A stretch of 64,000 nucleotides of DNA from Isoetes taiwanensis (Eukaryota > Streptophyta > Lycopodiopsida > Isoetales > Isoetaceae): positions 7,996,992 through 8,060,991 of the forward strand of contig JAJEKV010000058.1 of assembly GCA_021234155.1 (NCBI GenBank), given 5' to 3'. A program made the translations under genes and the position numbers. Below, piece after piece: positions 4,530 to 27,983 of the stretch (positions are counted from its first letter, which is position 1; the number at the start of each line of letters is the position of its first letter). A model generated the notes under the pieces. The model did not search any database, was not told the DNA's origin, and saw nothing but the letters and a program-made list of their open reading frames with translations.

Positions 4530-5950
4530 GCATGCCATGTCACCACTTGAGTGCCTAGGTGGCAAGGTGGCATGCCCGAGTCACCTTGGCATGTTGGAGC
4601 CTGTGTGCCATGTTGATGCCGCGTGGCATGTTGGAGCCACCTTGGCATGTTTGAGCCTAGGTGGCATGTTTGAACCACCTTGGCATGTTGGAGCCCACGC
4701 AGGCATGTTTGAGCCACCTTGGCATGTTGGAGCCTAGGTGGCATGTTGGAGCCCACGTGGCATGTTTGAGCCACATTGTCATGTTGGAGCCTAGGTGGCA
4801 TGTTGGGAGCCCACGTGGCATGTTTGAGCCACCTTGGCATGTTGGAGCCTAGGTGGCATGTTGGACCCAAGGGCACGCTTTGAGGCACCTTGACATGTTT
4901 GAGCCACCTTGGCATGTTTGAGCCTAGGTGGCATGTTGGTGCCTAGGTGGCATGATTGAGCCACTTTGGCATGTTGGAGCCTAAATGGCATGTTGGAGTC
5001 CCCAGGGCATGTTTGAGCCACCTTGGCATGTTTGAGCCGAGTGGCATGTTTGAGCCATTTGGCATGTTGGAGTCTACGCAGATGTTGGGAGCCCGTGGCA
5101 TGTTTGAACCACCTTGGCATGTTGGAACCTAGGTGGCATGATGGAGCCCGCACCGCACATTTGAGCCACCTTGACATGTTTGATCCACCTTGGCATGTTT
5201 GAGCCTAGGTGGTATGTTGGTGCCTAGGTGGCATGTTTGAGCCACCTTGGCATGTTGGAGCCTAGGTGGCATGTTGGAGCCACCTTGGCATGTTGGAGCC
5301 ACCTTGGCATGTTAGGGGCCTAGGTGGTATGTTTGAGCCACCTTCGCATGTTGGAGCCTAGGTGGCATATTGGAGCCCAAGCGTGGCATGTTTGAGCCAT
5401 CTTGGCATGTTTGAGCCTAGTGGCATGTTTGAGCCACCTTGGCATGTTGGAGTCTAGGTGCTATGTTGGGAGCCCACGTGGCATGTTTGAGCCACCTTAG
5501 CATGTTGGAGCCCACTGCATGTTGGAGCCCACGCAGATGTTTGAGCCACCTTGGCATGTTGGAGCCTAGGTGGCATGTTGAAGCCCATGTGGCATGTTTG
5601 AGCCACCTTGTCATGTCGTGAGCCTAGGTGGCATGTTTGAGCCACCTTGGCATGTTGGAGCCTAGGTGGCATGTTGGAGCCCCACGTGGCATGTTTGAGC
5701 CACCTTGGCATGTTTGAGCCTAGGTGGCATGTTAGAGCCACTGGTGGCATGTTGGAGCCTAGGTGGCATGTTTGGGCCAACTTGGCATATTTAAGCCTAG
5801 GTGGCATGTTGTGAGCCACCTTGGCATGTTGGAGCCTAGGTGGCATGGTGGAGCCCACGGGCATGTTTTAGCCACGCTGGCATATTGGAGCCTGCATGGC
5901 ATGTTAGGAGCCCACGTGGCATGTTGGAGCCACCTTGGTGGCATGTTTGA

Positions 5951-7373: not shown

Positions 7374-8770
7374 TCAAGTAGAAAGCCCCACTGGTACCTC
7401 TTTATCAATCAGAAATGGACCTTCCCATGGGCTTTGAAATTTGGATAGATGCTTCTTAGTGGTCCTGCACAACACCAATTGCCCTTCCTCAAATGGATTG
7501 ACAACCTGTAACTTATCTTTGATAAGCTTTACTTTTTGTTTATGCCTCATATTGAAGTCTGCTGCTTCTTGTCTCATCTCTTGCAATTGCAAAGAAATCA
7601 TCCATCCTATTATGCACTTGATTTGGAGTTGGAACTTCTCCTAAATTCTCATAATAAGGGAGCTCCACAAATGAACACAAAGGAATGTCCAAATGAATAG
7701 GCATCACATTTTGCACTCCATAAACCAATTCAAATGGTATAAATCCTGTGAGCCAACTTGTAAGTACACCAAACTCCATAAGGCACCCATCAATGCTTCA
7801 TGCCAATTTCTTTGATTATCCTTCAACTGTTTTGGCCAAGATAGCTTTTAATTTTGTTCAGACTCAGCTTGCCCATTGCCCTGTGGATAATAAGCAGAAG
7901 CTTGCACATGTTGAACACCAATCTTTTCTGTTAACTGAGCTACTACTTTTCCCATGAAATGACTTCCCCGATCAGACAAAAGAATGGTTGGAACACCAAA
8001 CCGAGAAATCAAATTGTGATAAAGAAAGCTTACTGTGGTATTTTCTGTAGCATGCTTTGCTGGAATTGCTTCTACCCACTTTGTAAACATACATGTGGCT
8101 GCCAAGATATACTTATGACCTTTGGAAGATGGAGGATTGATAGGCCCAATGTAATCCAATCCCCACATATGAAATGGACCAACGCTCATTCTTTCTTGCA
8201 CTATTAGGGTATCATTCTCAATCATTTTTTGTTTTTCTCTTTAGGCCAGAGGAAATTAATATTTTTGATGAACTTTTGATGGTTATGATGTCCAGGATAA
8301 GCCTGAATCAGTCTTTTTATTTGCTTGGCCTTGTCCTAACGGATCCAACCTTCGCTTCGGCATTGCAAAATTCTATACCCACTATAGTCTTCATGATGGC
8401 AACAACTCTAGGGTAAACAGAGTAGAAAATTGCATATTTGCATACTGAACAATTTTACGCTCATGCAAATTAGAGATGAAAGAGGTGATATGTGTAATAA
8501 CCAGGTTTGAACAAGTGAAATGGCGTAGAAGAGATGGGCAAGCCAAACTAGTAGGTGCACTGCTTGGAGTTGCATTGGAATGGCATATTATTATGGCCTG
8601 TTAACTGCTTATGCCTTTGACACTTCTCATATTTGCTAACAAAGTCTCTAGTATCCTTGTAAAGAGTTGGCCAATAATATCCCCAATGAAGGATCTTCCG
8701 AGCTGTGGTTCTGGCTGCAAAATGCCCCTGACAATCATGTGCTTGCTGCAACAAATCATGAGTTTGTTGA
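7374..8770 (-). pseudogene. Integrase of gypsy 1 (frameshifted)
   Basis: Integrase inserts the element cDNA into host DNA. Reading downward, the HHCC zinc domain appears near 8,600-8,760 with HDLLQQAHDCQGHFA and FVSKYEKCQRHK. The catalytic core follows at about 8,225-7,848 with GLDYIGPINPPSSKG (first Asp), LLSDRGSHFMG (second Asp) and YPQGNGQAES (Glu). The downstream part reads FELVYGVQNVMPIHLDIPLC and then a GPFLI segment like the GPY motif near 7,400. The domain is split over at least three frames, so no intact protein is possible. No chromodomain is visible. Confidence 0.88.
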
Positions 8771-10448
8771 CCAGCAACACATCTTAATAAGAGACCTTCC
8801 ATAGTCCTCTTATAAAGAATAGCTTCATGCACCACATAACCAGCTGCTTGTACTCTAAGAGCATGCTTTTGTTGCTTTGAAAATGATGAAGGATAAGTCT
8901 GATCTTGCAAATACCTGTATATGTTGGCATACCAAAGATCCACCGTCTCAATGAACCCTTGTAATACTCCATTATCCCGAAATGCTACTTGCTGGTGCAT
9001 TTCCTCTTCTATTTCAGCACCACTACTCAAATAGGCACTTGGATTATGAGCTCCTTGAGCCATCTTAACATACTTCAACTCAAATTCTTGTATGATAAGA
9101 GCCCATCTTGTAAACTTAGGATCTTGGACAGGCTTGTTGTAAATGCATGGCAACGGGTTCACATCCATATGAATGTAAACATACCGTACATTTGCTGAAT
9201 TCCATTGTGAAGGAAGAAGATAATGTCTAAATTTGTTCAAGGCCCACTTCAATGCCAATCCCAAGATGCTCCACATGAGTCCATTTTCGCTCTTGTGGAG
9301 TTAACAACCCGCTAGCATAGTAATTCACATCATAATGCTTTTGCTGATTTTTCCGACATAGTGTGAGCCCAAAGCTTGCTCCCAAACAAGAAAGAATAAA
9401 TGAAAAGGCTCACTCATTCTTGGAGGAATCAGCAAAGTCCTCTCTTTCAATTGTCCAAGGCACCATTCAAATGCTTCTTGAGCCGCCTTCCTTCCATCTA
9501 AAATTCTGCCCTTGCTTCATACAATCCACAAGTGGTCGGGTTACTTTAGCAAAATTGTGCAAATACCTCATACTAAAACCGGAGTTGACCATATAAGCTT
9601 CTCACTTGTGATACATTTGTAGGTGGTTTGACGTTCTCCAAGGCTGCAATCTTACCATGATCCACTTGTAACCCCTTTTCTGAAACATAATTGCCCAATA
9701 GTTTTCCTCCTCTAGTGAAGAAAATACACTTAGCAGGATTCAAACTTATTCCATACAATCGCTTCAAGAACTTTTTCGAGATGATCCAAGTGATCCTTTC
9801 TTGGATTCGAAAACACCATCAAGTCGCCTATAAAGACTCTCAAAAAGTCTAAAATATCATGAAAAGCATATGTCATAGCTCTCTGAAATGTGGCTGGAGC
9901 ATTTGTGAGGCCAAAAGGTAATACCTTGTAAGCATAGATGCCAAAAGGTGTTCGAAAAGCCGTCATTGCTTGATGTGGTGGATAGATTTGGATCTGATTA
10001 TATCCTGAGTACCCATCCAAGAAAGAATAGGCCTGATTTCCTGCAACAATATCCAATAAAGTGTCTATGAATGGTGTAGGAAAATGATCTCTTTTGGTAG
10101 CTTTATTGAGATCCCCAGAATCAATGCATACCGGATTGAGTTATTTGGCTTTCTCACTGGGACAATAGAACTGATCCAATCTGAATTTGGCACTGGTACA
10201 ATAAATCCTGCCTCCAAAAGCTTCATGACTTCAACCTTTACTTGCTCCTCTATTGCTGGACTCATTCGCCTTTGAGCTTGTTGGACTGGTTTTGATCCTT
10301 GTTTCAAATCAATGGTGTGCACCACAACCTCTGGTGGAATGCCTTTTAATTCTTTGTAATTTCTTGCCAAAACATCCCTGAATTCTCTTAACAAAGATAT
10401 CAAATCACGTTCCTCCTCTTGAGTAAGATCGCCTCCAATAGTAACCAA
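8771..10448 (-). pseudogene. Reverse transcriptase and RNase H of gypsy 1 (degenerate)
   Basis: The upstream thumb-proximal segment includes VVVHTIDLKQGSKPVQQAQR and GFIVPVPNSDWISSIVPVRK (10,448-10,065). The palm follows with YSFLDGYSGYNQIQIYPPHQ, TAFRTPFGIYAYKVLPFGLT and NAPATFQRAM. The active site reads FIGDLMVFS where family members have a YxDD or FxDD box, so one catalytic aspartate is replaced by glycine. Next come the tether region and an RNase H end with NPLPCIYNKPVQDPKFTRWA and GAHNPSAYLSS. Frames change near 9,750, 9,570 and 9,280. Confidence 0.9.
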
Positions 10449-10479
10449 TTCTTCTTGATTTCCTTGAGAAATATTAATG

Positions 10480-10690
10480 TTCTTGACTGAATGTGGTGAC
10501 TGTAATGAAGGTGGTGAGTGTGGTGACGAATGTGGTGAATGTGGTGAATGTGGTGACGAATGTGGTGAATGTGGTGACAGTGATGAATGTGGTGTGTGTG
10601 ATGACTGTGGTGACTGTAATGGATGTGGTGGATGTGATGATTGTGATGAATTTGGTGCATGTAATGACCGTGGATGACTGTGGTGAATAT
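10480..10690. repeat. 9-bp minisatellite encoding a histidine-rich tract on the minus strand
   Basis: About 22 imperfect copies of TGTGGTGAA and close variants. On the minus strand one frame gives runs such as HHIHHIHYSHHSHHTHHIHH. It lies just upstream of the reverse transcriptase frame of gypsy 1. The same words (GAGTGTGGTGAGTGGTGACG) occur in the LTR of this element. Confidence 0.88.
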
Positions 10691-11830
10691 GGACTGATCC
10701 GATTTACCTCATCCTCCGGAATGCGCATGCCACCAAGCTTCTTGTACTTGTATAGTGGGCTGATTTGTTTACCCCATCCATGCTTGATGTCAAAATCAGC
10801 ATCTCTACTTGATCTAGATCAATACCTTGCTGAAATAAAGTGTCATCAATGGGTCTTTGAATGGACTCCTCCTTCATGTTTACAAGAGTCTCTTGTAACT
10901 CACCTTCACCAATACTTTCAAGTCTTTGGATATACTTATTCGCAACTTGCTGCTTGTAAATGACATATTTCTGAAATTTGGGTACCTTTTAACCACTTGT
11001 ACAAAGTCTTATCTTCCCTGTCACACCACTTCCAAGACATGAAAACAACTAAGACCTTGCTGCCCCGACACCATAGCATTCTCTTTGCTGATTTCTAACT
11101 GCAAGGGCTGCTCAAAGAAGGATTGCAAAGAAAGGTACCTTTTGCTGATTTCAGAGGATGATCTATAGTAACCTTGTGTTCTCCTTGAAAGATGTTCATT
11201 TCAAGGCTTCCTCCATGAAGTCTCAAATTTTGTACAAGCATCTAACCATGTACGACTCAAAGAACAAAGTATAAGTTTCAAAGATGCACACTCTCGAAAA
11301 TTTCAAAACCATGAAATCCAAGATTGATTCCACCTCATAAACCTTGCATAAAACATTTCTTACGACCCCATAGGCTGCACCTTCATTTGATTGAATGCTT
11401 TGAGCATCATAGTTGTCGGTTCCATCATTTTCAATCCAACTTGAAGCATTATATGATAAGGCATTACATTCACTCCGCTTCCGTATCTATGTTGGCATCT
11501 TTGATTAAATATCCATTGATACTCACATCACAAAGAAATGGCCCGGATCCTTGGATTGCCGGGCTGGTGGCTCCATTCTCCTCTTTTGTCGGGTATCATT
11601 TGATATGATTTGTTGGACTGAAATTTCTGATTTTGTTCTTCCCCCAACTCTTGCAACAAATTTGGAGAATAATGCATCAATTGCTCAAGAGTAAGTGTAA
11701 CTTTAGTGGCCAAAACTTGGCTGATCACATCATCGTCATTTTGAATGTTCTCATCCACCATAGGAGGCATCACTATGGGCTGATTTTCTTCTATAGACCT
11801 AGAAAACTGCTCTGTGGGCAAAGACATTGA
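10691..11830 (-). pseudogene. Protease and spacer region of gypsy 1
   Basis: A minus-strand frame at 11,827-11,528 is open without recognisable domains. Just downstream, near 11,475-11,440, the residues GSGVNVMPYH appear after a frameshift. They match the flap-proximal part of retrotransposon aspartic proteases (LLDGGSPLNVMPHH in gypsy 2 of this window). The catalytic Asp itself is not readable in the same frame. The remainder down to 10,690 has no clear frame. Confidence 0.55.
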
Positions 11831-12030
11831 ATTGCACCTTCTTAGGTGCTGACACCTTCAAAGCATGTTCCTTCAAAGCCTTTGGAAAAGAGGTCTTAGT
11901 CTTCTCTCGCAATTGGCACTACTCTTGGTTCTTAAACCACCTTTTGTGATCTTGTAACTGCATTTACTTCTCCAATCTCTTCTTCTTGCTGAAATGGGTC
12001 ATGCTCCCACCTCAACAAATCCACAATTTA

Positions 12031-13447
12031 CTACTGATTTTGCCTTCTCTTGCTTCTTAAGCTCCTCAATAAGAGCCTTAACTTGAGGATTTTCAATGTA
12101 CTTTGCATCTTGAATGCAACATCATTATTAGGAAGAGGTACCGATTCAAACACTTGCTGCTTTGGTGGATACTTGTTGGTTGCCCATTCTGGTTTCCCAT
12201 GGATTTTCCAACAAGTAGTCTCATCATGCTTGAATTTATCACATAACTTGCAATATAAATGAGCCTTACTTGGATACCATCCCTGTTTTGGCTGCACCAT
12301 TGGTGTGGAACCCATTGGAACTTGTTGGGCAATTGGAGCTTGTGGCATCATTGGAACTTGTGGTATGATAGGTGCTGCTTGCATTGGTTGAATAGGAATA
12401 GATGGTGCTTGTTGCATAACAGCAAATACCGGATTGGCCCTCTCAAAGAATCTCTTCTCCCTACATTCTTGATCAGTATGGCCCTTGATTTGGCATCTTG
12501 AACAGAATTTCAGCAATCTACATGTAGTATCAGAATGCCCAATAGACCCACAATACTCACAAGTAATAAACTGAACCTCCCTTGGCTTCTCACCAATTGT
12601 AAGCTTAGAAATCTTGGCTGCAATATCCTCTATTTTATGCTCTGGAGCAGCAACTTCATGAATGTATCCGAGCTTATCTTCAGCCTTGAGAGCATACTTT
12701 TGTGCTTCTAACAATGTTGTAGGTTGTTTAGCCTTCACCTTATGAGCAATAGCTCGTTTCAGCCCCTTCACATACCATTGGATATCCATTTCATCATCCC
12801 TTGCAATCTTCCAATGAACTACGGCTTTGAGAACCGCAATATACCTCTGATTATACTCTCTAATTGATTCATCTTCCTTTTGTGTGAAATTGGTCCACCT
12901 TTCCATAGTCTTATCCTTACCATGAACTTCTTGATAATTAGCAATGAAAGCTTCCTTTAATTCCTCGATATGTCATGGTATCCGGCTGAGTTTGTGCCCA
13001 TTCCTCCACTTTGAATCTTGCAAAGAACTATGAAACCAAAGCAAGTAATCACAGACGGTAACTTACATTCGGCAATACCTCTCAAACTTCACAATATGCT
13101 TCAAAGGATCCCGATCCACCAGATCATCAAACTTTGGAATCCCCATTGTCTGAAAACCCCATACCATAGGTGGTATTACAGCCATCTCTGCCTCTTCTTG
13201 GGTTTCTTGAAATTGGAAAAACGAAATTGAATCTCCCTTCAATTTGAAAAAACGAAATTGGATTACCTTCTAGATCGGTAAATGGAATCAAAACCTCCTG
13301 GATCTGAGAATTAGATTCCAGATCTGCTCCCAAATCTGAAAACGAAATTGATTCTTGATGCAATTTTGAGCCCAAAGATTGATTCACCGGTCCCCTTCTT
13401 GTTACGATAGAGCTTGGTGGTATATCCTTCCTACTTCTCTTGGGCAT
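12031..13447 (-). pseudogene. Gag of gypsy 1
   Basis: Gag forms the virus-like particle that packages element RNA. The N-terminal region starts near MPKRSRKDIPPSSIVTRRGP (13,447), and the capsid-like part includes MERWTNFTQKEDESIREYNQ and RYIAVLKAVVHWKIARDDEM. Two CCHC-type knuckles follow, CEYCGSIGHSDTTC and CSRCQIKGHTDQEC. A third Cys/His cluster, YCKLCDKFKHDETTC, follows a Pro/Gln/Met-rich linker. The frame is broken between 13,127 and 12,906. Confidence 0.88.
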
Positions 13448-15640: not shown

Positions 15641-17410
15641 GCAACTATTGTGGAACATAAAATAAGTGGTTGGGCAGAGGCACATGATGTACGTGCTAAA
15701 GGGCAAGGGCAAGCAGGCTTTAGACCAAAAAAATCCACAATAGATCATCTAGTAAAATTTAGAGCTATTATGGATTCAGTGAAAGGGACACGAAAACCAT
15801 TATTTGCAGGCTTTGTTGATGATCTGGTGAGTAGGGACCATTTATGGAAAAGTATGGAGAAAATCAAGGTGCCTAGTCATTTCAGAGATGCGGTAAAACT
15901 GTTATATGAGAAAGTGCTGGTGCAGCTGTCCTTCCCATACAAAGATGAATGCGGTGAACAGGTGGAAAGTAACATGGGAGTTAAGCAAGGTTGCCCCCTA
16001 TCCCCTACGATGTTTGGCATTTTTATTGATGATCTAGAAAGGTGGATAGGTACACTTGAGGGAGATGGCACACGTCTCGCAGGATATGCTATATGTATAC
16101 TTCTATATGGTGATGATATTGTTTTGCTTGCGCGCAGCAAGGATGGGATGCAGAAACATTTAGATATTTTGGCATCTTTTTGCAAGGCAACAGGGATGCA
16201 GGTAAACCTAAATAAGACCAAAATTGTGCTCTTTGGTACTACGCTAGATCATAAATTTGCATTTACATATCGCGGGGATACGGTTGAAATAACACAAACG
16301 TACAAATATTTGGGGGTGATCGTGGATAAGAATTTCAGATGGAATCAAACAGTAGAACAACTGGTAAATGGAGGGTTAAAGGCCCTATTTGCCATGCAGA
16401 AGAAATGTGTGAAGGCCGAGATCTGGAGGTTTGAACTAAAGAAGATGCTCTTTAAAGTTCTTGTACATGCAGTGTTGCTTTATGGATGCGAGGTGTGGGG
16501 GCCAGGATTATCTCTGGAGTTATGGCAAAAGATTGAGAAGATACAAAAAAAATTCCTATGTACGTGGAGTTCGGTCAAATTGCAAACCCCTTATAAGATG
16601 ATGCTAGCTGAATGTGGGATGATGCCCTTAGAGTGTGAAGCTCTCACACGGTACCCTGGATACCTGAGTAAATTAGGTGTCCTAGAAGAAGACAGTTACC
16701 CAAGATTGGCTATGAAGGAAACATTTGAGAAAGGATGGTATGCGGAAGGGCAGAATTGGATGCACAAATGGGGTCTCAGGATAGAAGAACTTGCAACCAA
16801 TAAAAATAGAATACATGAACAAAAGGAGACAGTTCAGAAAGAGTTCGGCATAGCCCCTCGAGTGAAAATGCTTCACTACCGGGAGAAGATGAATCCCACA
16901 TTGCAAGAAATGAGATACCTAAATGAGAACATCTCTTTGAAAAAAAGATACGCCATATGCAGGATGCGACTAAGTGCACATCACTTGGGGATTGAGGTAG
17001 GGAGATGGTATAATATTCCGCGAGAATATAGGACATGTAGTATGTGTGGGTCAGATGAGGTAGAGGATGAAGAGCATGCAATCATATATTGCCCAGCGTA
17101 CCAGACCTTGAGGGTTGCACATGGCGCGTGTGAGCAGCTTGCACCAGTTTTTTAACCTACCAGCTACTATAGCCGGAAGCTTCTTGATTGACATGATGCA
17201 ACTAAGGGAGGCAGGGACTAAAGCTATCAAGAGCTACTTGACAGATGAGGAAGGAGAGGGGAGCAGTGAGGATCCCCATGAGGGGGTCTCAGATGAGGAT
17301 TGACTAAAATGACATTGTATATAACTGTCTTATAGACCTGATGGTCTCACAAAGACGCAATAATACGCTACGCTACGCTACGCTTCACTTCACTTCACTT
17401 CACTTCTCTT
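15641..17410 (+). mobile_element. LINE (non-LTR retrotransposon), 5'-truncated, with simple-repeat tail
   Basis: A 501-codon open frame (15,650-17,155) encodes the reverse transcriptase. It contains QAGFRPKKSTIDHL, GVKQGCPLSPTMFGIFIDDL, the active site LLYGDDIVLLA, LNKTKIVLFG and YKYLGVIVDKNFRW. A C-terminal Cys/His cluster CSMCGSDEVEDEEHAIIYCP is the zinc-binding zf-RVT type. The endonuclease and the first reverse-transcriptase motifs are missing, as expected for 5' truncation. After the frame the element ends in (TACGC)n and (TTCAC)n short repeats near 17,365-17,408 instead of poly(A). The frame has no internal stop, so the insertion may be fairly young. It lies in the upstream region of the trihelix gene. 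Confidence 0.9.
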
Positions 17411-17447
17411 GCATTCTAGTTTTCTATAAGCATGAGGGGTAGAGGGA

Positions 17448-19599
17448 TGTTGAGGATATTCCTGGCAATCCCTCAACCTCAATGGTGTAGAACCTCCAGG
17501 GTGCTATATGCAACCAATGCGGAGAGAATACCGCAGGTGAAATTGCTCAAACAACCAAGACAGGTTTAGTTTCCCAAAACGAAAAAGAGTCATCCACAAA
17601 AAAACACTTCTCTCATATGGTTCTTTGGGCTTTTCTCCATGCAATCAATTTCATTGGACACTAGACAGGATGCTAGATTTGCCTATAAAAGTCTGCTGGG
17701 AAATCTTTAGGGTAGCTATGGGCATTTGATCACAATGACTGAGTCAATTTTGGGTCAATATCCCAACCCGAGAGCTACTTTTTGCAAGTATATGAGCAGA
17801 ATGTCTTTTCAAGTTTTGTCAATTGGAATACTCTCTGATGGCTCTGCAAGCTAGGTGCATAAACTTCTTTTTTTGAGATCTGGTCTTTCCCTTTTTGTTA
17901 TGAAGATTTTTAGTAAGAAATTGCAACTTCAAATTCTGAGACAAGCAAATGGATTTTTCCTAAGAAAAACACAACACCACAATGTTTTATTTTTCTGTTA
18001 ATGTTTAATTCTCGAGACACACTTTTACTTATGGGCTAATTAATCGAATTGAGATCTTTGATTTGCTTCTAAGTTATGCTTTTAGTTATCAAATGAAGAC
18101 TATGCTTACCAAGTTCGAATTTTCTTTCATTGAAACATCACAGAATAGGAACATAAATTTCCAAGCTCATAGTCTTGGGCACAGGATCGAAAGTAATCAG
18201 ATGAAGGTACACATTCAAGTAGTTTGCATCAAATATTCAGGTATTTCATGCAAGGCAGGTCATTCTCCGCTCATATTCTGCAAATCCGTTCCGCATGCAG
18301 TCACAGAGGTCGAATCTTTCGCACAGAAGCCGGCCCTTGTTTCCGAATAATTTTCCCTTTTTATCTTCTCCTTTCCGGCATCTTCTTGGCATTTTGAGTT
18401 TGTTTGGCTCTATCTCATGCGTGCTATGGTGTTTCTTGGGGCACAAGGAGACAAAATGGAGGTTAAGGTTCGTGATTAATAGGCCAGATCTCTCAGAGAG
18501 AACGGATCTTGGCCTGACCCTTTTAGGTCAGAGGGCTTTTACTGAAGAACAATATCCCACAGGCGTTCGAAGAAAAATAATGCTTGTATGGCGTGGCGCG
18601 CTGTGATTGGGCAAGGTAATGCTAAGGTAAAGGGGTGCATAAGAAAATATCGTGTTTGCAATTTCCAAATGTTGGGCGCACTTCCCTAGGAGCCAAATTT
18701 TAGGGCAACAACATGATCTACTAGGGAATCTTTTTGTTCTGCATGGAATCTCTTAGATGCTCCAACCTATGGGAGACTTTCTTAGGAAAAGATTTGCTTG
18801 CACATATTTTTCTTTTCGAATGGCATGAACTAGGAGTTTAGACATGGGGTGAGTATGGGGTACATGTGGGCAATCCAAGGATGATGTGGCATGTGGTGAC
18901 TTGGCAAAACTTTCCCCCTAGTCAAAAACTTTGTGAGATGAAAAAAAAAATGATGTGTGATGAGGTGGACAAATTTGGTGAGGTGGATGATGATGTGGCA
19001 TGGCAAGTTTATCAAATGTGAATTTGAGCAATGGTTTAAACCATGTTTTGAGCTTATTTTTGTCCATGCAATTTGACATTGAAGATGTAAGTTCTTTCTC
19101 ACTCTTTTTGACTTAGAGAGAGAATAAGCCACTTTGACTAATGGTAGGTCGATTTTGCATGGAATTTTTTGTGTTTCAAGCAAACGGAGGTTGTTTTGAG
19201 GATGTGTGAGAAGTTCTTGACTAGGGAAAGAGTTTTGAACCATGGTGGAATATGTATAGGGGTGGAGGCAAGTGAAATGAGGGAAGTGGAGGTGAAGAGT
19301 GCTCTCAACATGATTAATGCCCAAGAATTTGAACTTGAATAAACATCTTACTTCTCAAAGGGGTCTTCTTATCTTGTTATTGCCATTAAGCTTCCTTGAG
19401 TTGACCTTGCCTTCCTCCTTGTATGTTTTTGACCTTTTTCACCTTGAATCCTTTCTTGTGATGCTTCAAATGAAAGTCCTTGCTTGGTTCTTCAGCTCGA
19501 GCTCTTGAGTTGACTTGGTCCATGCACACATCTCATCAAATCATTAGCCATTGATATGAAATGCCATATGCTCTTCTATGCTGCCAAGTCATGGCAGCA
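17448..19599 (-). repeat. 3' LTR of gypsy 2
   Basis: It is nearly identical to 25,810-27,978. Differences are concentrated in the first 200 bp, often at CAG or CTG words. The LTR contains a GATGTGGCATG cluster near 18,880-19,000. Short open frames in it are not genes. Confidence 0.93.
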
Positions 19600-19731
19600 T
19601 CATGCTAAAAAAAGGAACAAACTGATTTTCCAGACTCTTACTCTTGACTTTGCTCTTCTATGCTGCCAAATCATGGCAGCATCATGCTAAAAAAGGAACA
19701 AACTGATTTTCCAGCCCCTTATTCTTGACAG
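19569..19731. repeat. 82-bp tandem duplication across the LTR/internal junction of gypsy 2
   Basis: TGCTCTTCTATGCTGCCAA begins at 19,569 and again at 19,651, and both units continue through CATGGCAGCATCATGCTAAA and GGAACAAACTGATTTTCCAG. The LTR end sequence is thus present twice. No polypurine tract is evident beside either. Confidence 0.88.
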
Positions 19732-19746
19732 CCCTTTTCCAAATAG

Positions 19747-20230
19747 GTTGCCTTGGATGGGAAGGTGATAGGCAGCCTGTGGGATCTTGGATGTGGATAA
19801 TGAATCAAGTTTTGTGGATGTGGCCAATTAATGAAGACTGATCATGAAATCTGCTGATGCACCTACATGACAATGGAGAAAGTTAAGCATGTTTGTGTCT
19901 TCAGCCAGTTGCCTTTGATGGGAAGGTGATTGGCAACTTTGGGAATCTGAATGATGCCACTGGGTGCAAGTTTAGGTGGAGATGGTCAACTAGTGAAGGA
20001 TGAAGATGGAATTGCTGATGCACCTGCATGACACTTGAAACAATATTAGGAATTTCTGTCTTCACAATCAAGTTGCTTTTTTATGAGAAGGTGATCAGCA
20101 ACTTTTATGGGGACCTGAGTGATGCAAAAGAGTGCAGATTTCCATGATAATGGTCAATTGGTGAAGGGTGACAATGGATTTGCTGATGCACCTGCATGGA
20201 AATCAGTTGCTTGTTGAATATGAACCTGTA
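19747..20230. repeat. ~162-bp tandem repeat, three diverged units
   Basis: Units start with GTTGCCTTGGATGGGAAGGTGA (19,747), a near match at 19,908 and a weaker one at 20,072; a partial fourth begins near 20,206. Each ends with GCTGATGCACCTGCATG. It lies in the 3' untranslated part of gypsy 2, between integrase and LTR. The segment 20,231-20,450 has no feature that I recognise. Confidence 0.8.
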
Positions 20231-20449
20231 TTCCTGGCTCTCACCTGAGAACTGAACTCAATTGTTTCTTCAACCTGCTTGCTAATTTATACTATCTGGT
20301 TAATAACTGAGCAATTTAATCATATTTTCAAAAGAGAAACAATACCAATCCTACTAAACACCTGAAACTTAATTAATCTAAGTTAACCTATATCTTGAGC
20401 ATGATATACATTTATTCAAAGAGAATTAAGGCAACATGCTGTTGCCAGT

Positions 20450-21533
20450 ACCTCTTCAGGTGCAGTATATTGATAGGGTTGAGCAATTCATGTCCATCTG
20501 CAAGAGATTTGAACCAATATGAGTCTTTTTCTGCAACTCCAATCACCTCATAAGGACCTTCCCATAGGTTCTCAAATTTGGCTGCAACTTTCTCTCTTGC
20601 CTTGTTCTATTTTAGCACCAACTCCCCAGTTCTCAAAATCCCTTGCAATTTGTGAGCTGCTTTGAATGCTGCCACATCTCTTGCTTTCTTCAGTTGCACT
20701 GCATTCTCAGCTTCATACCTATGTTCTTCTAACTGCATCAACTTTGCTAACCTGTCCCTATGAGCTTCTTCCATTTCCAAGTTAATCTTATATGCCGACC
20801 TTAGTGAGGGGAGCTCTAGTTCAATAGGTAAGATGGCTTCAATCCCATAGACTAGGCTAAAGGGTGTATGTTTAGTGGCGGCCTTTATGGTGGTTCTGTA
20901 TGCCCATAGTGCATCACATAGCTTCACATGCCAGTCTTTCTTTGATACTGCTATAGTTGTTTGCAGGATATACTTTAAGACCTTGTTGGTAGATTCAGGT
21001 TGGCCATTGCCTTGAGGGTAATAGGCAGAGCTTTTTGTGTGTTTCACTTTGAGGGTGTTTAGTAATGTGGCAATAACCTCATTCATAAATTGAGTACCCC
21101 TATCAGAGATGATTTTCAAAGGAATGCCAAACCTTGCACATATGTTCTCATGAAGAAATCTGGCAGCGGTTAGGGCATTTGCTTGCCTTAATGGGACAGC
21201 TTCAGCCCATTTGGTGAAGTAATCAGTAGCAACCAAGATAAACTCATGCTGAGCAGATGAAGGTGGGTCTATGGGTCCTATAAAGTCTAACCCCCAAACT
21301 TGGAAGGGTCCAGGGGATACTATAGTTGTAAGAGGTGCTGGTTGCAGAATTCTTTTACCAAAAATCTGGCACTTGTGACAACATTTGATAATATCATAGC
21401 AATCTTTAAATAAGGATGGCCAATAGTAACCTGACCTCAGAATTTTCTTAGCTGTTGTATCTGCTGCATAATGCCCTCCACACACTCCTTCATGACAAGC
21501 TTCAAGTACCAGTTTGGCTTCTTCCTTATCCAC
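20450..21533 (-). pseudogene. Integrase of gypsy 2
   Basis: The HHCC domain reads HEGVCGGHYAADTTAKKILR and CYDIIKCCHKCQIFGKR. The core carries the three acidic residues in GLDFIGPIDPPSSAQ, ISDRGTQFMNEV and YPQGNGQPESTNK. Next come YRTTIKAATKHTPFSLVYGI and a C-terminal region with the GPY-type motif FENLWEGPYEVIG near 20,570. One in-frame stop (TAG near 20,607) separates VLK from NKARE, and another (TGA) lies just before VDKEEAKLV. No chromodomain is visible. Apart from these stops the domain is well preserved. Confidence 0.92.
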
Positions 21534-22769
21534 TCATCTCATTAGCACTCCCTCTTTGTTAACCCTGCACAACACATCATTTATTAGTCTAAATTTACCA
21601 CATTTCTCTTTGAACCTTCTCAGTTGGCTGGAGTTCATGTCTGCTGGCACTTCTTTGGTCTCCAAGTATTTCCTGATGCCTCTTACCAATCCTGTTCTTC
21701 AGTGCTGCTCATGATTAGGCTACAGTTATTAACAGCCTCTGAGTCTTCTAATCCTTCCTGGTCTTCATGTTCAAAAAACATGTTAGGCAAATAGGCACTC
21801 GGGTCATTGACCAAACTTACCACTTTAATAGTGATATCATATGCTTGTACTCTGCATGCCCATCTACATATTTTGGCTTTAGTTTATTTTTTTTGCAAAA
21901 AGGAGAGCCATGGGATTTTGTTTCATAGAGACAACTAACTTGCTATTCTGGAAAACATGACCTTGCCTATCAATCAAAAATATCAGAGCTGCTGCATTCT
22001 TTTCAAGTCTGGAATATCTCGACTCTGTGTCAGACCATACTTTGCTTGCAAATGTTACTATCATCTCATCCTGGAGCAAAACTGCTCCTATAGCCCTATT
22101 GGTAACACTTATGTAAGCTTGGAATGGTTTCCTGGGATCAGGTGGTTTCAGTAGAGTAGATTCAGATATGGCTTGAATGATTTTTTCAAAGGCATGCTGG
22201 TGTTCTCCAGTCCATTGGACCTGGATATGCTTGCTCTCATGTTTGGAGAGCTTTCCTATTTTGGTCAGATTTGAGATAGGACTTGTGGTGTGAGAAAAGT
22301 GTGGTATGTACATCCTCAGAAAGCTTGTCATACCTAAAAAACTTTTTACCTGTTTGATAGTTTTGGGTGGTGTGAGTTTCTTCAAAGCATCCACCTTACT
22401 CTCTGCAACTTGTATCCCTAGTGTTGAGACTTCGTGCCCTAGCAGGTCTCCTTTTGAGCACATGAATAGACACTTCTTTGGATTAAGACTTACTCCTCCT
22501 TTTCTGCACGGAGAAAAAACCTTAGTGAGATAAGCAAAATGATCATTTAGCAAAGTACCTAAGCACAGATCATCCAGAAATACTCTGAACTGATCTGGGG
22601 GCATGTCTTTGAATATGGTATCCATAGCCCTTTGGAATGTAGCTGAGGCATTCATTAAACCAAATGGCATCCTCTTCATTGCATAGGTACCCCAAGGAGT
22701 GATGAAAGCTGTTTTTGCTTGATCTTCCTCTTTTATGCTGATTTGATTGGAGCCTGAAAATCCATCCAA
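21534..22769 (-). pseudogene. Reverse transcriptase palm and degenerate RNase H of gypsy 2
   Basis: The palm shows LDGFSGSNQISIKEEDQAKT, YAMKRMPFGLMNASATFQRA and the active site FRVFLDDLCL, with both aspartates present. The tether SFLGMTSFLRMYIPHFSHTT follows. The gypsy RNase H reads PFQAYISVTNRAIGAVLLQD, where the expected catalytic aspartate of a YxDAS-type motif is absent, so this domain looks inactive. That is typical when a second RNase H is present (see 22,809-23,720). The frame stops at 21,879; from there to 21,534 only a linker with scattered stops is seen. Confidence 0.88.
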
Positions 22770-22808
22770 GAATGAATAGATTTCCTTCCCTGCAACAGCA
22801 TGTAAAAC

Positions 22809-23720
22809 TTACTCCAAGAAGGGTAAAGGATAACAGTCCTTGACAGTGTCTTTGTTTAAATCCCTATAGTCAATACAGATTCTTATGGTTTTATTTTTCT
22901 TTTCCACAGGAACTATGCATGACAACCACTCTGGATTCACTATCTCACATATGACCCCTGCATTTTCCATCTTGCACAACTCTTCCTTGATCAGATCTAA
23001 CAAGGCAACATTAATTCTCCTTAGCTTTTGCACAACAGGTCTCACATCTTTTTTAACTTTAATTTCAAATTCACACACATTCCTATCCACTCCTACAAGT
23101 TCATTGTAGTCCCAAGCAAACACATCTTTCCAATCATCAAACATTTGAGTAACCTTACTTCTATTTTCCTCTTTAAACAAGTCTCCTACAAACAAAGTTC
23201 TTTCCTTACCATTTTTCTCAATCTTCAACTCTTTTACCTCTTTCTCAGTATTGGCATTGATGACTAGTATAGGGTGTAGCTGCCTCAAGTCTTCTTCTTC
23301 CAGTTCCTCTTCTTTGACAGCTCCTTCTGCTAGATGCTCAAGCAAAACACTTTTACACAGCGCATCAGTCTCTTCATTAAGGTCTCTGGAAATGTGGTTT
23401 AGCTCCCAACTCTCAAAGCTTGCTAGTTCCTTCAAAGCTTCATCTCTGAGGGCCATCATGTCTTCCTGTTTGGCTTGATATTCCCCTAATATTTGCCTGC
23501 ACACCAATTGAGAGTCTCCAAATATCACAATGTTAGTTATTCCCAAGTGTTTAGCCTTTTGTAATCCAGCTATCATAGCCTTATGCTCTGCCATGTTTGA
23601 AGTAGTGTTGGGATAGATCCTGCCAACTTTTGCAAGCAACTTACAGTCATGATCTTTGATAATAGCAGCAGAAGATGCAATGCCCAACTTTTTTGAAACA
23701 CCTCCATCGAATCATAGAAA
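22809..23720 (-). CDS. Archaeal-type RNase H domain fused upstream of reverse transcriptase (gypsy 2)
   Basis: RNase H removes RNA from RNA:DNA hybrids during reverse transcription. The first part of this frame is a complete RNase H of the type called aRNH in plant Tat/Ogre elements. It has FDGGVSKKLGIASSAAI (Asp 1), NMAEHKAMIAGLQKAKHLGI (Glu), IVIFGDSQLVCRQILGEY (Asp) and ISRDLNEETDALCK (Asp), so all four acidic positions are present. An acidic linker EEELEEEDLRQ leads to the start of the reverse transcriptase with FAWDYNELVGVD, VQKLRRINVALLDLIKEELC, VICEIVNPEWLSCIVPVEKK and RICIDYRDLNKDTVKDCYPL. The frame ends in a TAA just before the palm. A TGA separates it from the protease upstream. Confidence 0.87.
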
Positions 23721-24284
23721 GGCAAAACCTTTTACATTTGGAGCAATACTACCCTTAGCTGGCGTGGACTCAATATGTGCTGTAGCTATTGCAAACTCAT
23801 ATTCACCACATGGGTTAGTAACCAATAAATATTCTTCAATGAAGTTCAATGACTCAAATTCACCAAGCTTATTGAGTAGTGTAATAGTTTTCTTGCTATC
23901 AGATATAGTGCACTCTCCCTTTAACCAAATTGGTCTGGCATCAATAGTAGATAGCCATCTTCTACCTAATAACAGATCATAAATGTCAGTTTTTTCATCA
24001 GCTCCTTCAAATGCAACCACCACAAAGCTTGCAGCAACTTTTATCCCTCCCACATCAATTGGAATGTTGCTAAGCACACCAATTGGATTGATCCTCGAGT
24101 TAGAAAAAGACTTTAGCACCATAGGTGCCTTCTTGTCAACTTCCAAGCCACAAGATTTCATTATATGGTGGGGCATAACATTAAGTGGAGAGCCCCCATC
24201 TAGAAGTACTTTAGAAAGCAAATTTTTTCCCAACCTAGCTTCACATGTAAAGGCACCAGGATCATATTCATTCTGCACAAGCAT
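23721..24284 (-). CDS. Aspartic protease of gypsy 2
   Basis: The retropepsin-like protease cuts the polyprotein. The active-site segment LLSKVLLDGGSPLNVMPHHI carries a DGG in place of the usual DTG or DSG, a variant common in plant gypsy elements. A flap-like region with SNSRINPIGVLSNIPIDVGG and the strand IYDLLLGRRWLSTIDARPIW follow. It is bounded by stops at both ends, so separate expression or readthrough would be needed. Confidence 0.87.
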
Positions 24285-24338
24285 TTGCTCATTGATGTGA
24301 TTTGCAAAGGCTATCTGCTCCTCTTGAGAGAGATTGAC

Positions 24339-25765
24339 TTAATCTTCTTTTGACAAGTCCATAATTTTGTTTCTATAGAATGGAGCAATTTTTAGTAAAG
24401 TCAACAAGTCTACACTCACTTTAGCATTTTTCATCAGACATTCAAAGTCATCACTTTCTTTCTCTTTCTTAGTAAACTTTTGATTAGGAGGAAGGGGTAC
24501 AACCTGATTTTCCTCGGTCACTTTTTCTTTGATTACCTCAGCTCTTCTGTTGATTGATGTAGCTTCTTTATTTTTCATAGCTCTTGTATGCACAGCCATA
24601 ATCTCCTCTTCTTGATCTTCCTGCATAAACCTGATTGAAGTAGCAAACCTAACTGCAGGAGAGGTTTCTGTGGCCAGTCTGCTAGGTACACTTGGCTCAG
24701 CACTTTTGGTCGCCTCTTGTCTTGCAAAATATTCTTTGACACTACACCTTTCCTCATAACGGCCAACAAATTTACAGAAGTGACAGACTGGACACTCTTT
24801 GCCATAATGACCTCTTTTTCCACACTTTGGGCATGGTCTGTACCAGCAAAAGTCTGATGAGTGTGTATCCCTTAGGTAGTGCACACATGGAGCATAGGTT
24901 TTTCTCTCAGGTCTCGATGCTTTCATTTCTTGTAATTGCTTGGTGACCTCCAGCAAGGCTTCTGAAATTTAGTGATCTCTGCCCTGCCATCAGAGGTAGG
25001 ATTTGCTGCATCTTCTGCTCTAGCCTTCTTCTTTTCTTTCTGCAGTGCATAGACTGGTATTGGACATGGGCCCATATACTCTGGTTCATAATCTGGAAAA
25101 AAAGGGTCATCAGATGAGTGCATGTCATCAGGAAGATAGGAAAACATGTTAGCAATCTCAATAGCTTTGGTAAAAGCCTTATGTATGGTATCAAAGCCTG
25201 CTTGTTTCTGCAACTTGTACATTTTTCTGTACACCCTTGGTCTGCTACTTAAGCCTCTTATGAAACATGCCACAAGGTGTAGGGTATGATTTGGTACCTG
25301 ACTTGCTTGACACTTACTTAGATAAGTGTGAAATCTCTCCACATACTGGTGCACAGTCTCACCATGCTTAATCTGAAGAGTATGTAATTCAAAGACCAAA
25401 TCTTGTGGTTCAGTTATCTTACCAAACCTTTCAATGAAGTGCTTTTCGATCTCCTCCCAAGTGTTGACACCTATGCTGATAGTGTACTCCAACCTCACTT
25501 CCTCATTTTTGAAGCACTTCTTAAATTCTGAAAACTTAGTACCTTTCTTATGCCCATATTCTTGGTAGTATTCCTCATAGCTTCTCAAAAACTTATTAGC
25601 ATTGATGCTTGGATCAAATGTAGGAGGAGGAGTTGGCACATTGAGCTCAAAATATTGTATACCTGCATTACCTTGATTGGTGACATTTGTGGCAGGAACA
25701 CCCGTGTTCTCTGGTGCTTCAATATGAACTTGGTCAGACACCTCATTGCTTTTCCTAGGAGCCAT
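24339..25765 (-). CDS. Gag of gypsy 2
   Basis: The first methionine is probably MAPRKSNEVSDQVHIEAPEN at 25,765. The frame runs to about 24,923 with the capsid-type segment FERFHTYLSKCQAS and LVACFIRGLSSRPRVYRKMY, and resumes at 24,956 after a small frame change. The second part has the zinc knuckle CPKCGKRGHYGKEC (24,830 region), followed by CHFCKFVGRYEERC, which keeps the cysteines but not the histidine. A Lys/Glu-rich tail ends at 24,339. Confidence 0.88.
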
Positions 25766-25786
25766 GAGTTCCCAAAGATCCAGGTG

Positions 25787-25806
25787 GGATCTCGGTAGAA
25801 CCTCCA
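25787..25806 (-). other. Primer-binding site of gypsy 2
   Basis: Three T residues after the LTR end, the element strand reads TGGAGGTTCTACCGAGATCC. Position and the TGG start fit a tRNA primer-binding site. I could not decide which tRNA it matches. Confidence 0.6.
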
Positions 25807-25809
25807 AAA

Positions 25810-27978
25810 TGTTGAGGATATTCCTGGCAATCCCTCAACCTCAATGGTGTAGAACCTCCAGGTTGCTATAGGCAACCAATCTGTGAGAGAATACTGCAGT
25901 GAAATTGCTCAAACAACCAAGACAGTTTAGTTTCCCAAAACAGAAAAGAGTCTGTCACAGCAAAACACTTCTCTCATATGGTTCTTTGGGCTTTTCTCCA
26001 TGCAATCAATTTCATTGGACACTAGACAGGATGCTAGATTTGCCTATAAAAGTCTGCTGGGAAATCTTTAGGGTAGCTATGGGCATTTGATCACAATGAC
26101 TGAGTCAATTTTGGGTCAATATCCCAACCCGAGAGCTACTTTTTGCAAGTATATGAGCAGAATGTCTTTTCAAGTTTTGTCAATTGGAATACTCTCTGAT
26201 GGCTCTGCAAGCTAGGTGCATAAACTTCTTTTTTTGAGATCTGGTCTTTCCCTTTTTGTTATGAATATTTTTAGTAAGAAATTGCAACTTCAAATTCTGA
26301 GACAAGCAAATGGATTTTTCCTAAGAAAAACACAACACCACAATGTTTTATTTTTCTGTTAATGTTTAATTCTCGAGACACACTTTTACTTATGGGCTAA
26401 TTAATCGAATTGAGATCTTTGATTTGCTTCTAAGTTATGCTTTTAGTTATCAAATGAAGACAATGCTTACCAAGTTCGAATTTTCTTTCATTGAAACATC
26501 ACAGAATAGAACATAAATTCCCAAGCTCATAGTCTTGGGCACAGGATCGAAAGTAATCAGATGAAGATACACATTCAAGTAGTTTGCATCAAATATTCAG
26601 GTATTTCATGCAAGGCAGGTCATTCTCCGCTCATATTCTGCAAATCCGTTCCGCATGTAGTCACAAGTCACAGAGGTCGAATCTTTCGCACAGAAGCCGG
26701 CCCTTGTTTTCGAATAATTTCCCCTTTTTATCTTCTCCTTTACGGCATCTTCTTGGCATTTTGAGTTTGTTTGGCTCTAGCTCATGCGTGCTATGGTGTT
26801 TCTTGGGGCACAAGGAGACAGAATGGAGGTTAAGGTTCGTGATTAATAGGCCAGATCTCTCAGAGAGAACGGATCTTGGCCTGACCCTTTTAGGTCAGAG
26901 GGCTTTTACTGAAGAACAATATCCCACAGGCGTTCGAAGAAAAATAATGCTTGTATGGCGTGGCGCGCTGTGATTGGGCAAGGTAATGCTAAGGTAAAGG
27001 GGTGCATAAGAAAATATCGTGTTTGCAATTTCCAAATGTTGGGTGCACTTCCCTAGGAGTCAAATTTTAGGGCAACAACATGATCTACTAGGAAATCTTT
27101 TTGTTCTGCATGGAATCTCTTAGACGCTCCAACCTATGGGAGAATTTCTTAGGAAAAGATTTGCTTGCACATATTTTTCTTTTCGAATGGCATGAACTAG
27201 GAGTTTAGACATGGGGTGAGTATGGGGTACATGTGGGCAATCCAAGGATGATGTGGCATAGGATGACGTGGCATATGGTGACTTGGCAAAACTTCCCCCC
27301 TAGTCAAAAACTTTGTGAGATGAAAAAAAATGATGTGTGATGAGGTGGACAAATTTGGTGAGGTGGATGATGATGTGGCATGGCAAGTTTATCAAATGTG
27401 AATTTGAGCAATGGTTTAAACCATGTTTTGAGCTTATTTTTGTCCATGCAATTTGACATTGAAGATGTAAGTTCTTTCTCACTCTTTTTGACTTAGAGAG
27501 AGAATAAGCCACTTTGACTAATGGTAGGTCGATTTTGCATGGATTTGTTTGTGTTTCAAGCAAATGGAGGTTGTTTTGAGGATGTGTGAGAAGTTCTTGA
27601 CTAGGGAAAGAGTTTTGAACCATGGTGGGATATGTATAGGGGTGGAGGCAAGTGAAATGAGGGAAGTGGAGGTGAAGAGTGCTCTCAACATGATTAATGC
27701 CCAAGAATTTGAACTTGAATAAACATCTTACTTCTCAAAGGGGTCTTCTTATCTTGTTATTGTCATTAAGCTTCCTTGAGTTGACCTTGCCTTCCTCCTT
27801 GTATGTTTTTGACCTTTTCACCTTGAATCCTTTCTTGTGATGCTTCAAATGAAAGTCCTTGCTTGGTTCTTCAGCTCGAGCTCTTGAGTTGACTTGGTCC
27901 ATGCACATATCTCATCAAATCATTAGCCATTGATATGAAATGCCATATGCTCTTCTATGCTGCCAAATCATGGCAGCA
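25810..27978 (-). repeat. 5' LTR of gypsy 2
   Basis: It starts TGCTGCCATG and ends CCTCAACA on the element strand and is about 2,169 bp. It is the partner of 17,448-19,599 and carries an extra GATGACGTGGCATA segment near 27,260. Confidence 0.93.
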
Positions 27979-27983
27979 AGGGA

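Follow-up and report, generated by a model that had tools for sequence, protein, structure and literature searches.

The window, a 64-kb stretch of Isoetes taiwanensis DNA, contains a minus-strand Ty3/gypsy LTR element of 10.5 kb (17448-27978), the pieces of which follow one another in the order gag, protease (PR), archaeal-type RNase H (aRNH), reverse transcriptase (RT), native RNase H (RH) and integrase (INT), as listed in Table 1. Both LTRs and every domain are present, yet the copy is decayed. The LTRs, each of about 2.15 kb, are separated by a K2P distance of 0.018 (2149 aligned sites) and have the ends TG...CA; the TCCCT found on either flank constitutes a 5-bp target duplication. The LTR opens with a short inverted repeat (27958-27978), and an 80-bp piece around the start of the 3' LTR is duplicated just inside the element (19651-19729). 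The putative primer-binding site presumably resembles the 3' end of tRNA-Gln. Neither an Rfam search at the gathering threshold nor ARAGORN gave a match within the window.

Table 1. Features of the gypsy element in the Isoetes taiwanensis window (window positions)
Feature	Positions	Strand	Evidence
5' LTR (TG...CA)	25810..27978	-	97.0% identity with 3' LTR; opens with inverted repeat TGCTGCCA/TGGCAGCA
3' LTR	17448..19599	-	Paired with 5' LTR; ends and flanks
Target-site duplication TCCCT, upstream copy	27979..27983	-	Direct reading
Target-site duplication TCCCT, downstream copy	17443..17447	-	Direct reading
Putative primer-binding site (TGGAGG...), 3 bases inward of the 5' LTR	25789..25806	-	Sequence reading
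gag capsid ORF	24923..25807	-	PF03732, E 1.3e-9
gag zinc-knuckle region	24339..24956	-	PF00098, E 0.0073, below cut-off (weak)
Aspartic protease (PR), ending at in-frame stop	23712..24284	-	PF13650, E 0.013, below cut-off (weak)
Archaeal-type RNase H (aRNH), D-E-D-D present	23333..23711	-	PF13456 and RNase HI structures
RT with degenerate native RNase H at about 21882-22214	21882..23332	-	PF00078, PF17919, PF17917; Ty3 RT 4ol8
Integrase (H2C2 and DDE core)	20607..21533	-	PF17921, PF00665
Non-coding 3' region, 161-bp tandem repeats at 19747-20198	19651..20198	-	Sequence comparison within the window

Domain order and acidic residues of the two RNases H

The open reading frame at 22809-23687 (minus strand) begins with a match to Pfam RVT_3 (PF13456, E 5.4e-20) and its end aligns with the RT of Ty3, so that the aRNH passes straight into the N-terminus of RT. 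Upstream of the aRNH is the protease frame (23712-24284); downstream are RVT_1 (E 2.6e-15) and RT_RNaseH_2 (E 5.3e-19), together spanning 21879-22769, followed by the H2C2 and rve domains of integrase (20607-21533). The placement of the aRNH between protease and RT is thereby confirmed for the window element, as had been predicted from the letters of the sequence. In phmmer searches against solved structures, the aRNH matches the RNase HI proteins 4e19 (E 6.6e-14) and 2ehg (E 2.6e-9), which we take to be haloarchaeal and from Sulfolobus, respectively, with further matches to ST0753 (3aly) and Rv2228c (3hst). Its glutamate, second aspartate and last aspartate align opposite D/E letters of 4e19 that are presumably the catalytic ones. 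The first aspartate belongs to the motif FDGG, two codons past the in-frame stop at 23712-23714, which puts it outside the open reading frame although it can still be read; the four acidic residues of the original prediction are thus all there. Chance as the source of the domain pattern is excluded by the E-values and by the recurrence of the pattern across copies. An AlphaFold model of the 292-residue window frame, made without an alignment, had a mean pLDDT of 36 and was discarded.

In the native RNase H, a serine lies opposite the aspartate of the TTDAS motif in the alignment with Ty3 RT (4ol8), an aspartate that we take to be the first catalytic one. The columns of the glutamate and of the second aspartate, which were set by eye, hold asparagine and methionine in the window copy. 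The predicted loss of the first aspartate is therefore real, but the domain is more degenerate than had been claimed, the glutamate and second aspartate (by eye) being lost as well.

Copies elsewhere in the genome

A search of the Isoetes taiwanensis genome with the aRNH and RT together as query scored 40 places among 1651 candidates, and all 40, the window copy included, were examined. The aRNH is directly before RT in 38 of them and between protease and RT in 35; all six pieces are in order in 26, and two have no match to the aRNH. Because this query favours elements with the aRNH before RT, a second search was made with PF13456 alone, which yielded 2502 candidates, 150 of them scored and all 150 above the cut-off. 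Thirty of the 150 were read, namely the top ten and then one row in five between rows 11 and 106. This sample, drawn from rows 1-106, favours well-kept copies; all 30 have the order PR-aRNH-RT, with 35-76% identity to the aRNH of the window copy. Conservation of this order in many copies, which the original prediction had named as support for itself, is seen in both searches.

The original prediction had named an aRNH located after the native RNase H in other copies as evidence against itself; there is none in the 41 loci that show both domains (31 from the set of 40 and 10 from the PF13456 set of 30; in the remaining 20 PF13456 loci the piece ends short of the native domain), and no second aRNH was found on scanning every match in the 40 and 30 loci. 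PR-aRNH-RT-RH-INT is the sole aRNH arrangement in the loci sampled from Isoetes taiwanensis, where aRNH-bearing elements look abundant. Among the 150 scored PF13456 matches, 26 are in open frames of at least 1000 codons, one of which has an internal stop.

Of 36 copies, the window copy alone has the in-frame stop that separates protease from aRNH, and the in-frame RT stop at 22809-22811 occurs in two of 38. Since both stops are rare among the copies, they are attributed to decay and do not mark gene boundaries. Frame changes in 7/36 and 13/38 copies (assessed on 300-bp pieces) indicate that many copies are decayed.

The acidic residues of the aRNH are largely kept in the copies that have a match among the 40: the first aspartate in 33/34, the glutamate in 32/36, the second aspartate in 36/37 and the third in 32/35. 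All four are kept in each of the 30 PF13456 loci, a sample picked by profile score. Distances in the aRNH and in RT are strongly correlated (Mantel r 0.88, 37 loci, a value reached by 0 of 2000 permutations), indicating that the two domains have been inherited together.

Relation to Tat elements and probable roles of the two domains

The PR-aRNH-RT arrangement is already known in the literature, both as a type of element and from this group of hosts. According to the available text of PMC6317226 (REXdb), TatI from club-mosses and TatII from gymnosperms are characterised by an aRH between PROT and RT, whereas in TatIII it is found after INT, and in Ogre and Retand between RH and INT; TatI and TatII also resemble the window element in having the native RH after RT, and integrase last. 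In the part of PMC10508981 available, the aRH upstream of RT is termed 'structure #2', the second commonest kind, which was found in three clubmosses (clusters F/G) and in every gymnosperm studied (clusters E/J), and which shares with the window element the DEDD residues of the aRH and the degraded native RH, a degradation described there for all aRH-bearing Tat structures. The window element agrees with structure #2 and with TatI/TatII in being an LTR element with the Ty3/gypsy order RT-RH-INT, in possessing an extra RNase H of archaeal type (PF13456; 4e19, 2ehg) between protease and RT (35/40, with the aRNH directly before RT in 38/40, and 30/30), in the degraded core of its native RNase H, and in its lycophyte host. 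The Ogre/Retand elements (structure #1) likewise combine an archaeal-type aRH with a degenerate native RH, but differ in having the aRH between native RH and INT, a position that it occupies in none of the 41 Isoetes loci with both domains. The original prediction regarded the order as a departure from the Tat lineage, and only the order of flowering plants was known to it; with the arrangement published for clubmosses and gymnosperms, the observation is correct, though not new. Isoetes is not named in the main text of PMC10508981; PMC10541799 mentions, in its available part, a Gypsy expansion in Isoetes, the words Tat and Ogre are absent from its main text, and none of the matches listed in a literature search has Isoetes Tat elements as the subject of its title.

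The best explanation, to which we assign a probability of roughly 0.92, is that the window contains a Tat-type Ty3/gypsy element of structure #2 in decayed form, Tat by its order and by published description, with a catalytic aRNH and a native RNase H that acts as a tether. The aRNH is most likely the active enzyme, taking away the RNA strand in the course of reverse transcription; the native domain, its catalytic acids lost, is probably retained as a structural 'tether' beside RT, a role proposed for the native RH of Tat, as in retroviruses, in the available text of PMC10508981. We infer both the catalysis by the aRNH and the tether role from these comparisons, which lend support to the earlier idea that the RNase H activity comes from the upstream domain. 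A second RNase H accompanied by loss of the native catalytic set is also found in the Archon and Chronos elements of oomycetes, distant kin of Tat, and in retroviruses; both differ from the window element in their 'dual' layout, the second domain of Archon/Chronos adjoining the native one and Chronos having a chromodomain (PMC5348765, as far as available). The Isoetes elements agree with the published view that capture of an RNase H is followed by decay of the native one, independently of the place of the new domain in Pol.

The original prediction took a reversed order to imply a separate acquisition or a rearranged lineage, and a gypsy lineage of lycophytes outside Tat may have acquired its aRNH independently, in convergence with Tat. 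Such an origin draws some strength from the deep aRH phylogeny, which in the available part of PMC10508981 does not distinguish single from multiple captures, both being equally assumable there before a single capture is preferred, and from an older proposal of three acquisitions or more that is cited in the available text of PMC6317226. The window family comes from a quillwort and is likened to TatI of its host group, the club-mosses, by published description. An independent acquisition is nevertheless quite unlikely, given that PMC10508981, in the part available, places all aRH-bearing plant LTR elements that it found within a monophyletic Tat, describes Tat of clubmosses and gymnosperms with the same order and the same loss in the native RH, and, with the aRH tree unresolved, prefers a single acquisition and later recombination between elements, so that no separate acquisition is needed.

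A structure #2 element with a catalytic aRNH is also preferred over one in which the aRNH is a functionless passenger while the native RNase H remains active. Selection was measured as divergence at third codon positions divided by the mean of first and second positions, a plain codon-position ratio. The ratios are 3.72 (protease, 33 copies), 3.89 (aRNH, 37 copies), 3.36 and 3.53 (the two halves of RT, 38 and 33 copies), 3.00 (native RNase H, 33 copies) and 3.51 (integrase, 29 copies), a codon pattern of purifying selection that points to both RNase H domains being maintained, even the native one, which has lost its acids. The value for the native domain is what a working native RNase H would predict, but that of the aRNH is at least at the level of RT and its acids are mostly kept, whereas the column of the first native aspartate, fixed by the Ty3 alignment, has no D in any of the 32 readable copies (serine in 29), and the columns set by eye read E in one of 32 and, for the second aspartate, methionine in 32 of 32. 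In the ten divergent PF13456 loci with a match to the native RH, too, none of the three columns holds its acid (D, E and D) in any locus, gaps occupying 1, 3 and 3 loci, respectively. These readings make a passenger aRNH very improbable.

That a piece of a host RNase H gene was inserted in the window copy alone, as the in-frame stop parting its aRNH from the protease might suggest, is refuted by the other genomic copies and has almost nothing left in its favour, the aRNH occupying this place in 38 of 40 copies and in all 30 PF13456 loci at identities down to 35%, with the stop peculiar to the window copy among 36.

A broader proposal, to which we give slightly less than even odds, is that in Isoetes Tat elements of the order PR-aRNH-RT are nearly the sole aRNH-bearing kind, and that selection may maintain their native RNase H as a non-catalytic positioner of an N-terminal RNase H, unlike the C-terminal layout of retrovirus-like elements. 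Many long open copies are present in Isoetes taiwanensis, and these would allow a study of how an RNase H located before RT works.

Other repeats in the window

A second gypsy element, degraded, is located at 7681-12906 on the minus strand, where tblastn with the domains of the window's element recovered pieces of gag, PR, RT, RH and INT; tblastn, Pfam on four minus-strand frames and inspection by eye all failed to reveal an aRNH there. A GC-rich (0.57-0.59) tandem array with units of about 1.08 kb occupies 56.2-64.0 kb, its full units being 90-91.5% identical to the first and the adjoining DNA about 40% GC; Rfam at the gathering threshold has no match for it. An open frame of 501 amino acids on the plus strand (15650-17155), which stops some 290 bp short of the 3' LTR, reads by eye like a LINE reverse transcriptase, and an array of 19-bp units extends over 1.35 kb at 4587-5938.
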